Positions 17,445 through 22,135 of a stretch of DNA of 33,123 bases are shown piece after piece (within the stretch, counting starts at the first letter, position 1; each line of letters begins with the position of its first letter). The stretch is from IMG/VR virus record IMGVR_UViG_3300042869_000062, positions 1-33,123 of that record, one strand, 5' to 3'. This stretch comes from a virus. Position numbers and translations under genes: made by a program. The notes below the pieces were generated by a model. That model ran no database searches and was not told the origin of the DNA. It worked only from the letters and a program-made list of their open reading frames with translations.

Positions 17445-18409
17445 AGTTTAGACCAAGAATAACAAGAGAAGAATTTGAGATAGTAGCACAATTCAGAGCA
17501 ATACAAAAAGAATCAAACGACTTAGGACTAAACGATCAGGACGTAAAACACGGATGGCTAAAGTCTAAAAAGGCTTCGCTTTTTTTTAAGAACCCAAACT
17601 TTAAGGAATCAGAAGAGCAGAACTACGAGCTTATCCGAGAATCTATTTTAAGTGAGATTAAAGAACATTTACCAGTTTATCCTACAGGTAAGCTCTGCGA
17701 TGCTTTTGAAGTAGGAGAGGTATATAACAACCAAATCGCAGTACAAAGAGTCTTGGAGGGAGTGCAAGGTATTTTAGACAAAGCAAGCGGATTCCACATT
17801 GATAGGATTCTTTTTATAGGTGGCAACGATATCTTACACATTGATACTCCAAAACGAACTACCACAGCAGGCACTTCTCAGGACACGGATGGAATGTGGT
17901 ACAGTAACTTCTTAATCGCAAAAAAACTATATGTCGAAATTCTCGAACAACTTATCAGCGTGGCTGACGTACATTTTACTTTCAATCCCTCTAATCACGA
18001 TTATACACACGGTTTCTTTCTTGCTGATGTTATTCAGACTTGGTTTAAAGATTGCAAGAACATTTCTTTTGACTGCTCTATTGCACATAGAAAAGGCTTC
18101 CAATACGGAAAGAACCTTATCGGCACGACTCACGGAGATGGAGCGAAACAACAAGATCTACCTATATTGATGGCTACGGAGTTTCCGGTTGAATGGAGTG
18201 AAACAAAACACAGGTATGTTTACACGCATCACGTTCACCATAAATCATCTAAAGACTACATTGGGGTCACCGTAGAGTCACTCAGGTCACCGTCCGGTAC
18301 TGATAGCTGGCATCATCGCAACGGCTATTCACACGTTCCTAAAGCAGTTGAAGGCTTTGTACATCACAAAGAGTTTGGGCAGGTTGCAAGATTAACTCAT
18401 AATTTTTAA
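17441..18409 (+). CDS. Calcineurin-like metallophosphoesterase, 322 aa, with altered motif I
   Basis: Metal-binding motifs of this family are visible: GGND (127-130), SNHD (184-187, a variant of GNHD), THGD (230-233) and HHVHH (263-267, equivalent to GHxH). The usual first motif D-x-H appears as CDAFEVG (D87, F89), so the His seems missing. Last gene of the late block, after the spanin (ATGA overlap), and ending at the terminator region 18436-18459. Phages of Bacteroidota often carry such a gene; its substrate (phosphodiester or nucleic acid) is unknown. Could be a nuclease acting on host or phage DNA. Confidence 0.75.
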   Translation: MKFRPRITREEFEIVAQFRAIQKESNDLGLNDQDVKHGWLKSKKASLFFKNPNFKESEEQNYELIRESILSEIKEHLPVYPTGKLCDAFEVGEVYNNQIAVQRVLEGVQGILDKASGFHIDRILFIGGNDILHIDTPKRTTTAGTSQDTDGMWYSNFLIAKKLYVEILEQLISVADVHFTFNPSNHDYTHGFFLADVIQTWFKDCKNISFDCSIAHRKGFQYGKNLIGTTHGDGAKQQDLPILMATEFPVEWSETKHRYVYTHHVHHKSSKDYIGVTVESLRSPSGTDSWHHRNGYSHVPKAVEGFVHHKEFGQVARLTHNF

Positions 18410-18417
18410 TATATTTG
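18384..18417 (+). promoter_or_regulatory. Bacteroidota-type promoter before the 18421 element
   Basis: TATATTTG at 18410-18417 fits the TAnnTTTG -7 box; a TTG at 18384-18386 lies 23 bp upstream as a weak -33 box. The start would fall near 18423, so the transcript would run straight into the terminator at 18436. The -7 box begins right after the stop codon of the phosphoesterase gene. Confidence 0.55.
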
Positions 18418-18420
18418 TAA

Positions 18421-18459
18421 CTTCATAGCGTAAGAGCCTCCTTAATCGGAGGCTTTTTT
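18421..18459 (+). ncRNA. Candidate short antisense RNA (seed plus terminator)
   Basis: Between a -7 box (18410-18417) and a terminator (18436-18459) lies CTTCATAGCGTAA (18421-18433), exactly complementary to 24517-24529 across the ERF start codon and to 10 nt (ACGCTATGAA) at the first early gene (18804-18813). The expected RNA is about 37 nt: a single-stranded seed followed by a terminator hairpin, as in minimal trans-acting sRNAs. Whether it is made, and which RNA it pairs with, is untested. Confidence 0.4.
18436..18459 (+). terminator. Intrinsic terminator at the end of the late block
   Basis: Perfect stem GCCTCC (18436-18441) / GGAGGC (18448-18453), extendable by an A-T pair, loop TTAATC, and T6 at 18454-18459. 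It ends transcripts from the lysis/phosphoesterase genes and from the promoter at 18410. Confidence 0.9.
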
Positions 18460-18808
18460 CGTATCATACTATGATTTTTGTATAGTATGTTATACTTAAT
18501 CGGGTATATTCCGACTAAAGTCACATTATATTATACCTTTTCGGGTGTAGTGCCGATAATTCAAAATATACTTTCCGGTAATTGAACAAATTAAACAATC
18601 GTTTACCCTTACTTTATGACATAAGTCCTAAGAATTACCCCTTACTTTGTTACAAAATGTAAAGTGAATATAAAAAATGTTCAAAAATTTTGCGCCTAAA
18701 ACCCTTGTAAAATAAAGGAATTTAAAAAACTTTTACTCCGAACGAAACTTTTTTGTTTATATCTCGATAAAGTATTATATATTTGTAGAAACTTTTTAAT
18801 TCAACGCT
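18460..18808. promoter_or_regulatory. Gene-free control region; possible replication origin
   Basis: This is the main part of the only long gap (18410-18808). It holds CATACTAT (18465-18472) / ATAGTATG (18482-18489), two related sites TCGGGTATATTCCGA (18500-18514) and TCGGGTGTAGTGCCGA (18541-18556), an imperfect direct repeat TTACCCTTACTTTATGACA (18603-18621) and TTACCCCTTACTTTGTTACA (18635-18654) spaced 32 bp apart, and a very A+T-rich stretch 18655-18780 before the early promoter. I see no ORF worth calling. The features fit an operator cluster or origin. Confidence 0.6.
18752..18785 (+). promoter_or_regulatory. Early promoter (TAnnTTTG type)
   Basis: TATATTTG at 18778-18785 with a TTTG at 18752-18755 (spacer 22) fits the Bacteroidota promoter pattern. 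It lies 23 nt before the ATG of the first early gene. The leader ends ...TTCAACGCT just before ATG. Confidence 0.75.
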
Positions 18809-18991
18809 ATGAACAAAGAACAACTTTTAGAACTTATCCGCAACGAAGAAGCGGAGCTTTACTTTCAGCTCTTAGAGCAACAAGACGCATTTGGTACTAA
18901 TGATAAAGGCACAATGCATACGGCAGCACAATGGTTTGCAATAACTACTTTACTTGATAAAATTGAAGAAAATGAAGAACTTAGTAAATAA
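18809..18991 (+). CDS. First early gene, 60 aa, unknown
   Basis: Begins MNKEQLLELIRNEEAELYFQ, an acidic helical protein with a central DAFGTNDKGTMHTAAQWFAI and an acidic end. No known domain. Its ATG follows ACGCT, the same context as at 22702 and 24524. First gene behind the early promoter at 18778, so it is probably made soon after infection and might act on the host; that is inference from position. Confidence 0.65.
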   Translation: MNKEQLLELIRNEEAELYFQLLEQQDAFGTNDKGTMHTAAQWFAITTLLDKIEENEELSK

Positions 18992-19600: not shown

Positions 19601-19743
19601 GATTTAAACTGACATACAAAATAGGACTTGCAATTGTCCAAGAGTGGATATTCACTTCAAAAGGACTCGCTTACTGGAAAAAAAGAGACCTGATTGAGAC
19701 AGGAAGATTTAATGATGGAAAATTTTTGATAACACCGATATGA
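19597..19743 (+). CDS. Small ORF, 48 aa
   Basis: ATG at 19597 overlaps the previous stop (ATGA), and the TGA at 19741-19743 overlaps the next ATG (ATGA). The product begins MRFKLTYKIGLAIVQEWIFT and ends FLITPI. It contains a basic patch (YWKKRDLIETGRFNDGKF). Perfect ATGA junctions at both ends are the main support. No family recognised. Confidence 0.5.
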   Translation: MRFKLTYKIGLAIVQEWIFTSKGLAYWKKRDLIETGRFNDGKFLITPI

Positions 19744-20198
19744 ACTTTGAACAAGTATTAGAATACATCAAACAAGAAGATTTAGGTTGCAAGTCAAGAG
19801 AGCAGTTTTATGTTTTTAGACGTCACTATTTAATCAATGCAATTTATCAAACACGTCAATTTACGTTAGCGCAGATAGGTTCGTTTTTCAATAGAGACTA
19901 TTCAACCGTCTTGCACTCCGTCCGGAAGCATCAGGATTTGAAACGTGATAAGTTGTATCAACACATCAACGAAGGTTGCGCTAAGATCTTGCGTGAGCCA
20001 ATTACGTTCAGTAAACAAAGACGGAATATTTTTGATGATTTAGAAAAAGCAAACAGTGTAAGTATGTTAAAACGAATCAAGAGATACTACAAAGCTGGCT
20101 ACTACGAGCTGAGTCCAAAGCCGAGCAAGGAGAATTGGGAAAAGATTGGACAACACGTTAAAAATAATTTTCCACAAGACGAACAAAATCCAACTTAG
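19740..20198 (+). CDS. DnaA domain IV-like DNA-binding protein, 152 aa
   Basis: Residues about 25-66 match the helix-turn-helix of DnaA domain IV: RRHYLINAIYQTRQFTLAQI, then GSFFNRDYSTVLHSVRKH. DYSTVLHSV corresponds to the DnaA signature DHTTVxHA. There is no AAA+ ATPase part, so this is a free-standing DNA-binding domain with a basic tail (SMLKRIKRYYKAGYYELSPK). A TTTTCCACA site fitting the DnaA-box consensus TTWTNCACA lies at 20168-20176 inside its own 3' end. It may mark the phage origin and recruit host factors, or act as a replication regulator. Confidence 0.75.
   Translation: MNFEQVLEYIKQEDLGCKSREQFYVFRRHYLINAIYQTRQFTLAQIGSFFNRDYSTVLHSVRKHQDLKRDKLYQHINEGCAKILREPITFSKQRRNIFDDLEKANSVSMLKRIKRYYKAGYYELSPKPSKENWEKIGQHVKNNFPQDEQNPT
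20168..20176 (+). promoter_or_regulatory. Possible DnaA box
   Basis: TTTTCCACA fits TTWTNCACA. A single copy can occur by chance, but it lies in the 3' end of the DnaA-like gene and 28 bp before the next promoter. Confidence 0.3.
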
Positions 20199-20203
20199 AT
20201 AGT

Positions 20204-20211
20204 TATATTTG
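20204..20211 (+). promoter_or_regulatory. Promoter -7 box of the replication leader
   Basis: TATATTTG at 20204-20211 fits TAnnTTTG. A good -33 TTTG is not seen at the usual distance. The transcript would start near 20217 and enter the structured leader. Confidence 0.55.
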
Positions 20212-20306
20212 TGAATGGTTCGCTCTCACACCATAGAACCTAAAGGAATTATTGACCCTTGTAATGAAGTAGATGTGAGAGCCTACGGATTTGCGGGGGT
20301 TTTTTT
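20211..20306 (+). ncRNA. Structured leader / candidate attenuator before replication genes
   Basis: GCTCTCACA (20222-20230) pairs perfectly with TGTGAGAGC (20274-20282). ACCCTTGT (20255-20262) can pair with GCGGGGGT (20293-20300), using G-T wobbles, directly before T7 (20300-20306), and GTAG (20269-20272) with CTAC (20283-20286). The first stem and the terminator stem cross each other like a pseudoknot, so one may control the other. A reading frame from ATG 20215 crosses this region but is an unlikely start. The element could be an attenuator, riboswitch-like leader or stand-alone RNA. Confidence 0.5.
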
Positions 20307-20325: not shown

Positions 20326-20514
20326 ATGAAAAGTAAAAATGATTATTATTTAATAGAATGCTCAAAGCATCATATTAAGGAAATGGATTTAACATATGTA
20401 TTGTGTGTTTATTCAAATGGATTTAAGGAAAAGAATATGGAGTTTAAATATGGTCAATATATACCTACTATTTTACCTTACAATTGTGAATCAAGTTATG
20501 TCGGGTTGGATTAA
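20326..20514 (+). CDS. Small protein, 62 aa, unknown
   Basis: ATG at 20326 gives MKSKNDYYLIECSKHHIKEM, then YVLCVYSNGFKEKNMEFKYG. The frame is open upstream to ATG 20215, but that would include the structured leader and its U-run, so I prefer the later start. It overlaps the next gene (20498) by 17 nt. No family recognised; A+T-rich like the surrounding leader. Confidence 0.5.
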   Translation: MKSKNDYYLIECSKHHIKEMDLTYVLCVYSNGFKEKNMEFKYGQYIPTILPYNCESSYVGLD

Positions 20515-21106
20515 ATTACATCGCAGTCTTAAGGATTGGGAGTGGTATGATGATCACAACTCAACTCGCTTGCTATTACATTTGCTTTTATCCGTAAACT
20601 ATGAAGATAGAGTTTGGAAAGGGCAGACAATAAAGGCAGGTACAATCGTTACCAGTTGGGAGAATCTCGCGAAAGAAGTAGGTCTATCGGTCAAGCAAAT
20701 TCGTACCGCAATGGACAAGTTAGAAAGGTCTAAAGAAGTGGCACGCTACACGACAAACAAATGGCAAGCTGTAAGCCTTGTAAAATGGAAGAAGTTGCAG
20801 TTAATATGTGAGCAAGAGGGCAAGCAAAAGGGCAAGCCAAGGGCAACAACTAAAGAAAGTAAAGAAATAAAGAATAATACTATACCTGAATTTCCTGAGT
20901 TTTTAGCTTACGCTTTAGAGAAAAAGCCTAAAATCAATCAGCAGGATTTACGACTAAAATACGAAAGTTGGAAAGAGAGTGATTGGAGTATAAATAGAAG
21001 TGGTAAATTGCAGCCTATTTCAAATTGGAAGGCAACGCTATTAAATACTCTTCCATACATCAACGAGATATCTTATAATTTACCATCACAAATTTGGGAG
21101 GGATAA
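20498..21106 (+). CDS. Winged-helix replication protein, 202 aa
   Basis: I chose ATG 20498 (MSGWIKLHRSLKDWEWYDDH), because earlier in-frame codons back to 20396 lie inside the 62-aa gene and match nothing. Residues 1-100 follow a pattern well known from Bacteroidota phages: GWIKLHRSxxDWEWYDDxxxxRLxxHLLLxxN, then GTIVTSWENLAKEVGLSVKQIRT, a winged-helix region like that of DnaD/replication-organiser proteins. The second half is basic with EFPEFLAYALEKKPKI. It is followed after 3 nt by the helicase and probably loads it at the origin, comparable to lambda O / DnaD roles. Confidence 0.75.
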   Translation: MSGWIKLHRSLKDWEWYDDHNSTRLLLHLLLSVNYEDRVWKGQTIKAGTIVTSWENLAKEVGLSVKQIRTAMDKLERSKEVARYTTNKWQAVSLVKWKKLQLICEQEGKQKGKPRATTKESKEIKNNTIPEFPEFLAYALEKKPKINQQDLRLKYESWKESDWSINRSGKLQPISNWKATLLNTLPYINEISYNLPSQIWEG

Positions 21107-21109
21107 AAT

Positions 21110-22135
21110 ATGTACAAGAAATTAACGGACTTGAATGCAGAAATGTTTAGCATAAGACACGAAAAAGATGTCAGAGGTAAATCAATTGGTTGGGATTGGG
21201 ATATGTTACCGATTACAATTAAAGAAGGCACTACAACTTACATAGGAGCAGCACCTGCATCAGGAAAGACGGAGCTTTGGTTTGAGATACTTATAAATCT
21301 TTCGTGTTTACACGGTTGGAATCACGTCATATTTTCTCCTGAAACTGGTAACTCTGCTGAGATATTTTCTGAGCTTTGTTACAAGTACATTGGAAAGCCA
21401 TACGTCCAAGGTCAGAGTTCAATGACAAATGGAGAGCAGGTAAGTGCAGAGATGTTTGTAAACCAACATTTTATTGTTATAGATCCGATTGATGAAGATT
21501 TAACCATAACAAAATTCTACGATTTAGTAGATGAGATAGAACGCAAGGAACAAATTACAATACACACCACTACAATTGATCCGTGGAATGAACTTACCGA
21601 GGAGTTTATATCTTCTGACTTAGGACGTGAAGACAAGTATTTGAGTAGGATATTAGGACAAGCACGTAAGAACGCACGAAAGACGAATAGACATAACTGC
21701 ATTATCAATCACGTTAGAGACCAACCAATGGTAACCGCAATGTCAGTAGCAGGAACTGAACTTAGGTACTTTCCAATTCCAACGGCAAGAGACTTTGCAG
21801 GCGGTCAGGTGTGGTTTAGAAAAGGTCTAAGCGTGTTAATTCCGTGGAGACCTCCTTACGGACTACCTGATGCTGATGGAAGCGGAGCAGAGAAAAACGA
21901 AGTGCATCTAAAAGTTGCCAAAAGCAAACCAAAAGGTGTGTCAAAAAACGGAGTATACAAGTTATTTTTGGACGTTGATCGCTACCAGTATTATATGCTT
22001 GACTACAAAGGCAACCGTGTTTATGCAAACCGAGGCACAACCTACAAAAAAGAGAATCAGGTGAAACTGCCGCAAAACGGAATAATATCAACATCGGAGA
22101 AACTCCGTAATTTAGCAAATCAAAACCCTTTCTAA
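21110..22135 (+). CDS. DnaB-type replicative helicase / RecA-fold ATPase, 341 aa
   Basis: Walker A is GAAPASGKT (residues 46-54). The context IGWDWDMLPITIKEGTTTYI before it and HVIFSPETGN after it is typical of DnaB/Twinkle-type P-loop ATPases. Further hydrophobic strands ending in acidic residues (QHFIVIDPID and HTTTIDPWNE), NCIINHVRDQP and RKGLSVLIPWRPP fit the core strands and DNA-binding loops. It lacks an N-terminal DnaB domain, which suits a phage helicase relying on a loader, probably the protein upstream. Its stop overlaps the next ATG by 1 nt. Confidence 0.8.
   Translation: MYKKLTDLNAEMFSIRHEKDVRGKSIGWDWDMLPITIKEGTTTYIGAAPASGKTELWFEILINLSCLHGWNHVIFSPETGNSAEIFSELCYKYIGKPYVQGQSSMTNGEQVSAEMFVNQHFIVIDPIDEDLTITKFYDLVDEIERKEQITIHTTTIDPWNELTEEFISSDLGREDKYLSRILGQARKNARKTNRHNCIINHVRDQPMVTAMSVAGTELRYFPIPTARDFAGGQVWFRKGLSVLIPWRPPYGLPDADGSGAEKNEVHLKVAKSKPKGVSKNGVYKLFLDVDRYQYYMLDYKGNRVYANRGTTYKKENQVKLPQNGIISTSEKLRNLANQNPF

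Follow-up and report, generated by a model that had tools for sequence, protein, structure and literature searches.

The pT181 repC gene is governed by a countertranscript-driven attenuator, in which an antisense RNA, through loop–loop pairing, and an exclusive preterminator stem are involved in stopping transcription early in the leader of this replication initiator gene. In phage HK022, put is an antitermination RNA, i.e., a nascent leader transcript made of hairpins that sets read-through; to our knowledge, it has neither a terminator hairpin of its own nor kissing loops. For phages of Bacteroidota, we know of little work on the control of replication-gene timing, and of no description of RNA-based control.

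The expression platforms of corrinoid (cobalamin) riboswitches contain an L5–L13 kissing loop in the 5′ leader (PMC10653944), and in the IncIα plasmid ColIb-P9 the translation of repZ is controlled by a pseudoknot in the leader (reviewed in PMC8383071).

The leader described here precedes the replication genes in a full virus record of 33,123 bases (the whole stretch analysed, hereafter the window), which is a phage contig, probably of a host among the Flavobacteriia. It resembles the corrinoid platforms (PMC10653944) in having a loop–loop kiss in a 5′ leader that would control a terminator or a ribosome-binding site, and ColIb-P9 repZ (PMC8383071) in having a pseudoknot or kiss that may control translation from within the leader of a replication-gene mRNA. 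However, it contains no cobalamin aptamer, no antiterminator was seen, and its kiss is a helix of 6–9 bp reaching from a tiny 5′ hairpin to the terminator's own apical loop. Unlike in ColIb-P9, the pseudoknot includes the terminator hairpin, no antisense RNA is known, and the carrier is a phage rather than a plasmid. With pT181 the leader shares loop–loop pairing and (here predicted) premature termination ahead of a replication initiator, but here a single RNA pairs with itself, and an exclusive stem is not conserved. The position of the kiss inside the terminator's own loop, together with the lack of an exclusive stem or a known effector, sets the leader apart from these three systems. As with put, a nascent phage leader of hairpins would set read-through, but a comparison with put gave no sequence resemblance and no Rfam match. 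A literature search for a described equivalent returned none. We file the leader as a new RNA family of the cis-acting attenuating kind and as a member of none of the systems compared.

Architecture of the Leader and Its Genomic Context

In the window, the leader is flanked by a DnaA-C-like gene on its 5′ side and by the next start codon on its 3′ side, and this interval contains no second promoter of the same type. The relevant features are the following.

19740–20198, + strand: DnaA domain-IV-like (DnaA-C-like) gene upstream of the leader (PF08299, E 1.6e-8)
20204–20211, + strand: –7 promoter element TATATTTG of the Bacteroidota TAnnTTTG type, retained in nearly all relatives while the preceding DNA has diverged
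20216–20306, + strand: predicted leader RNA of about 91 nt, with its own promoter, a 5′ hairpin, a terminator and a loop–loop helix
20217–20221 with 20236–20240, + strand: P1 hairpin at the RNA 5′ end, 5 bp with a 14-nt loop; double compensatory changes in 5/5 pairs, 98.8% of cells paired
20222–20230, + strand: kissing helix, P1-loop strand GCTCTCACA, partner of 20274–20282; double changes in 6/9 pairs
20241–20253, + strand: unpaired conserved linker TAAAGGAATTATT, whose ATTATT core also occurs in compact variants
20254–20264 with 20291–20301, + strand: P2 terminator stem, 11 pairs; double changes in 7/11 pairs, 97.1% of cells paired
20266–20267 and 20288–20289, + strand: symmetric internal loop above P2, GA opposite GA
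20269–20272 with 20283–20286, + strand: P3 upper terminator stem, 4 bp; double changes in 4/4 pairs
20274–20282, + strand: kissing helix, terminator apical-loop strand TGTGAGAGC, covarying with the P1-loop strand
20300–20306, + strand: U-run (T7), predicted 3′ end of the terminated RNA
20326–20514, + strand: first ORF 3′ of the leader, 62 aa, no assigned function; its ATG lies 19 nt past the U-run
20495–21106, + strand: DnaD-like helicase loader/replisome organizer, true start about 20495 (PHROG 2514, E 3.6e-17)
21110–22135, + strand: replication ATPase (PHROG 5482; DNA primase-helicase PHROG 239)

The promoter box reported in the initial annotation is present and, apart from it, no intergenic TAnnTTTG site was found between 18778 and 24493 of the window. 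When the published F. johnsoniae promoter spacing, with a G at –5 (PMC6847099), is applied to this element, transcription would start at about 20216, i.e., at P1 and past the first base of an ATG at 20215. As for the DnaD-like gene, the mechanically called ORF starts about 33 codons early (20396–20494 being extra); alignments to homologues begin at residue 34, and the homologues start at ATG 20495.

The P2/P3 hairpin (–17.7 kcal/mol, z = –3.6) runs directly into T7, so that a stable, covarying hairpin is followed by a U-run, the pattern of an intrinsic terminator. The perfect 9-bp helix noted earlier is likewise present (GCTCTCACA with TGTGAGAGC); it is a pairing of two loops over at least 6–7 bp with covariation, as in kissing complexes of the RNAI/RNAII and TAR/TAR* type. 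On paper, this helix would join the P1 loop to the terminator apical loop in three dimensions. The second stem of the initial annotation is real and does end at T7, but the 8 bp assigned to it were too few, there being 11 pairs plus the 4-bp upper stem; the P1 hairpin had been missed altogether. The whole architecture of the window leader beat 5000/5000 dinucleotide shuffles.

Evidence for a Structured RNA

Starting from homologues of the DnaD-like and ATPase proteins, we collected 130 loci from IMG/VR. By BLAST, the leader is kept in most of them, while the DNA 5′ of the promoter is variable. Covariation was assessed on 34 distinct leaders, aligned by MAFFT on sequence only. In this set, 94.7% of the cells of the full structure are paired and 22/29 pairs show changes on both sides; the cell counts overstate the number of independent events, since the leaders share ancestry, which bears less on the variety of pair types. 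All four helices (P1, kiss, P2 and P3) contain many compensatory changes, and the covariation score was 0.694, as against 0.236 for shuffled alignments and about 0.10 or less in slid registers. RNAalifold, run independently, predicted the same nested helices. G–U cells outnumber A–C cells by 69 to 14, which points to selection on a plus-strand RNA. The covariance model (R1) found a single copy in the window (106.7 bits) and one copy per locus in the relatives. We are left with very little doubt that the leader is a structured RNA, and covariation in homologous leaders, the check that had been proposed, agrees with the earlier view of crossing helices and an intrinsic terminator in front of replication genes.

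That view had also held that the region lacks convincing coding and belongs to no recognized class. Both points stood. Among the 34 relatives, a coding role was rejected in any frame on either strand, and leader lengths are not multiples of three. The frame from the ATG at 20215 is open in the window by chance: the ATG is present in 11/34 relatives and stops occur in 20/34. A leader-peptide attenuator was rejected as well, as no short reading frame stays open across the same set. No Rfam family matched the window or seven relatives (including the phi18:3, FCL-2 and JQ loci) at the gathering score, and relaxed thresholds gave chance-level matches only (E 2 or worse). A search for tRNA and tmRNA found none.

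What found no support was the idea that the two stems exclude one another. Because the 9-bp helix links the P1 loop to the terminator apical loop, the stems can coexist in a kissing complex, and individual sequences maintain the pairing of both (88% and 97% of cells). The either/or switch derived from that idea would need a conserved competing antiterminator stem, and none was found: pairing of the linker with the 5′ arm of P2 amounted to 4.24 bp, as against 4.33 bp for shuffled linkers, and this candidate was discarded. The kiss is compatible with the terminator hairpin.

Distribution in Viruses of Flavobacteriia

The leader is common to many viruses of Flavobacteriia, comprising dozens of related contigs and cultured phages of five host genera. 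Among 72 IMG/VR loci with at least 1.3 kb of sequence upstream of the replication ATPase, 70 carry the element (the descriptor recognized 61, and 9 more were identified among the remaining 11 through an R1 match or by eye); L082 and L101 alone seem to be without it. Over 86 distinct loci, the first start codon lies a median 18 nt past the U-run, and it is on the leader's strand in every case. In most loci showing the DnaA-C-like gene, the promoter follows its stop codon by 8–47 nt. Over all loci, the kiss takes 21 distinct sequences.

Loci without a model match mostly have a compact form at the same place. Here P1 has about 4 bp, and its loop of 6–7 nt is wholly complementary to a terminator loop of 6–7 nt closed by a short P3 (e.g., GTTGCAG/CTGCAAC). 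In 19 distinct sequences this kiss is 100% paired, one column pair having three fully different pair types and another having two. The internal loop of the terminator in compact leaders (e.g., L022, 2925–3009) reads AGTA opposite GAA, a sequence signature of the bulged-G (sarcin-ricin) motif, where the long forms have GA opposite GA.

Turning to cultured phages, the R1 model detected the element in Cellulophaga phage phi18:3 (E 1.3e-7). The same architecture occurs in Flavobacterium columnare phage FCL-2 (kiss CATCCAC/GTGGATG, model E only 0.32) and in Tenacibaculum phage JQ (kiss GCATCCTAC/GTAGGATGC), and it stands before the replication gene modules of Polaribacter phage P12002L and Croceibacter phage P2559S. 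The FCL-2, JQ, P12002L and P2559S elements have unrelated loop sequences. Each of the cultured-phage elements scored above 5000/5000 dinucleotide shuffles, and the gene behind them, or the one further on, belongs to replication-initiation, DnaD-like or primosomal PHROGs. Given their synteny and similar layout, the long, compact and cultured-phage forms are likely to share an ancestor, although the model gives no proof of this for FCL-2, JQ, P12002L and P2559S. The descriptor has a background in AT-rich DNA (22 matches among 1057 shuffled promoters), so that genomic position counts in these calls.

When the complete records of Flavobacterium 6H, Cellulophaga phi39:1 and phi46:1, and Nonlabens P12024S were scanned with the descriptor, nothing convincing turned up, and no element was seen by eye near the ATPase gene of Riemerella PT15. 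Genome contigs were scanned both by pattern and by protein alignment, and no prophage or host-genome relatives were found. In P2559S (L189), the annotated start of gp48 at 33955 falls inside the terminator hairpin; the true start is probably the ATG just past the T-run, near 34000.

Copies of the Kiss Strand at Start Codons

In 5 of the 21 kiss classes (AGGCAG, ATGCAG, GTGCAG, GTTGCAG and CTTCGAC), a second copy of the P1-loop strand lies no more than a few bases from the start codon of the following gene, whichever gene that is. Such copies occur in 18 of 73 distinct loci, where permutation predicts 1.5; between classes, 5 of 1460 comparisons matched. Since the first four classes are akin to one another, the copies amount to evidence from two lineages. 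The kiss class of the window lacks a copy of this kind. In AGGCAG-like classes, as read from the sequences, the copy also lies in the loop of a small A–U hairpin formed with the U-rich tract. The match between loop and start codon is broken in L028, where 1011–1121 is a natural recombinant joining an AGGCAG-class leader to a start region with a GTTGCAG copy.

Structure around the start codon reduces translation in F. johnsoniae (PMC6847099), so pairing of the terminator loop at that place should repress, and P1 would then be a decoy. To judge from these sequences, the terminator loop could mask the ribosome-binding region in the two lineages, the window's not being one of them. We give even chances to translation being involved in the lineages that carry such copies.

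Proposed Function and Alternatives

We lean towards the view that the element is a cis-acting 5′ leader, extending from its own promoter to an intrinsic terminator, that would attenuate the replication operon in Flavobacteriia phages. That it acts in cis on this operon seems, from its arrangement, at least as credible and perhaps slightly more so, and it probably sets how much of the replication genes is made. The layout fits a general transcription attenuator, in which partial termination before the first gene would be regulated. Of the functions suggested in the initial annotation, an attenuator remains the best guess, whereas a small-molecule riboswitch has no positive evidence.

In the working that we propose, most transcripts would end at the U-run, and the replication operon would be expressed from read-through. 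The kiss may stabilize the terminator hairpin or time its folding, so that whatever engages or disrupts P1 would set read-through; the signal might be feedback by a replication protein or an RNA, which is a guess. The lack of a conserved antiterminator counts against this proposal, as does the lack of a start-codon copy in the window's class. In the two lineages with start-codon copies, the terminator loop might pair with the copy instead, P1 would act as a decoy holding that loop off the ribosome-binding region, and the translation of leaky transcripts would also be controlled. A stronger version, in which the terminator apical loop doubles as an antisense to the start region of the next gene, the 5′-terminal hairpin mimics that region, and competition among the three loops couples termination to translation of the replisome organizer in a new class of leader RNA, is one that we put forward tentatively and regard as rather doubtful. 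If true, a kissing loop built into a terminator plus a loop copy at the start codon would be a simple way of coupling termination and translation. As the element is widespread, compact and present in cultured phages, it is directly testable.

Alternatively, the element might be a stand-alone small RNA, transcribed and terminated by signals of its own, that acts in trans on host or phage transcripts and owes only its timing to its location. The complete transcription unit of about 91 nt from 5′ hairpin to U-run, the compact stable fold and the conserved unpaired linker are all what such an RNA would have. However, its tight spacing to the next start codon and its invariable orientation over the 86 distinct loci speak against action in trans, and both candidate seed loops vary freely while pairing mutually. 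The start-codon copies are seen only in cis and, at other start codons of the phage loci (potential trans targets), the kiss sequence is not enriched (0.28% own vs 0.40% control). We consider a small RNA unlikely; the layout favours a leader, though a small RNA of the same structure would look similar.

A ligand-binding riboswitch, in which the P1-loop tail, the linker and the internal loop form a pocket and the ligand alters the terminator, strikes us as very improbable. Conserved unpaired nucleotides in a pseudoknotted leader with a terminator do recall known riboswitches, but neither the P1-loop tail nor the linker is kept in compact leaders or in several of the cultured phages, where the P1 loop consists of hardly more than the kiss of 6–9 nt. 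There is also no alternative antiterminator fold and no Rfam match, and the genes downstream are for replication rather than metabolism. We give even less credit to a part in the phage replication origin, whereby transcription through the element, or the RNA itself, would activate or prime replication. The place of the element between a DnaA-C-like gene and a helicase loader would suit this, but DnaA boxes are not above chance (4 vs 5.3 expected), there are no iterons around it, the covariation is typical of an RNA with a terminator, and the loop copy tracks start codons rather than DNA sites.

Neighbouring Sequences

The slot between the leader and the replisome organizer holds differing families of proteins of about 60 aa without known function (20326–20514 in the window; also L003, L006, L104 and 15 others). 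One of these proteins (MNEIYLQCQFNDKD...) was found in 18 loci. Where such proteins are present, no start-codon loop copy was seen. In seven loci (L036, L037, L133, L145, L147, L149 and L151), a homing-endonuclease-type gene lies directly behind the leader, before the replication genes; that of L037 has NUMOD4 and HNH_3 domains, and the genes of the other six cluster with it. This suggests that the site behind the leader is an insertion hot spot.

Further upstream in the window, about 400 nt (18409–18809) between the structural and early genes are mostly noncoding and contain two TATATTTG promoters, at 18410 and 18778. A strong hairpin and T-run (GAGCCTCC..GGAGGCTTTTTT) lie within about 25 nt downstream of the promoter at 18410. 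This promoter could thus yield a very short RNA only, or the hairpin could be the terminator of the structural operon.
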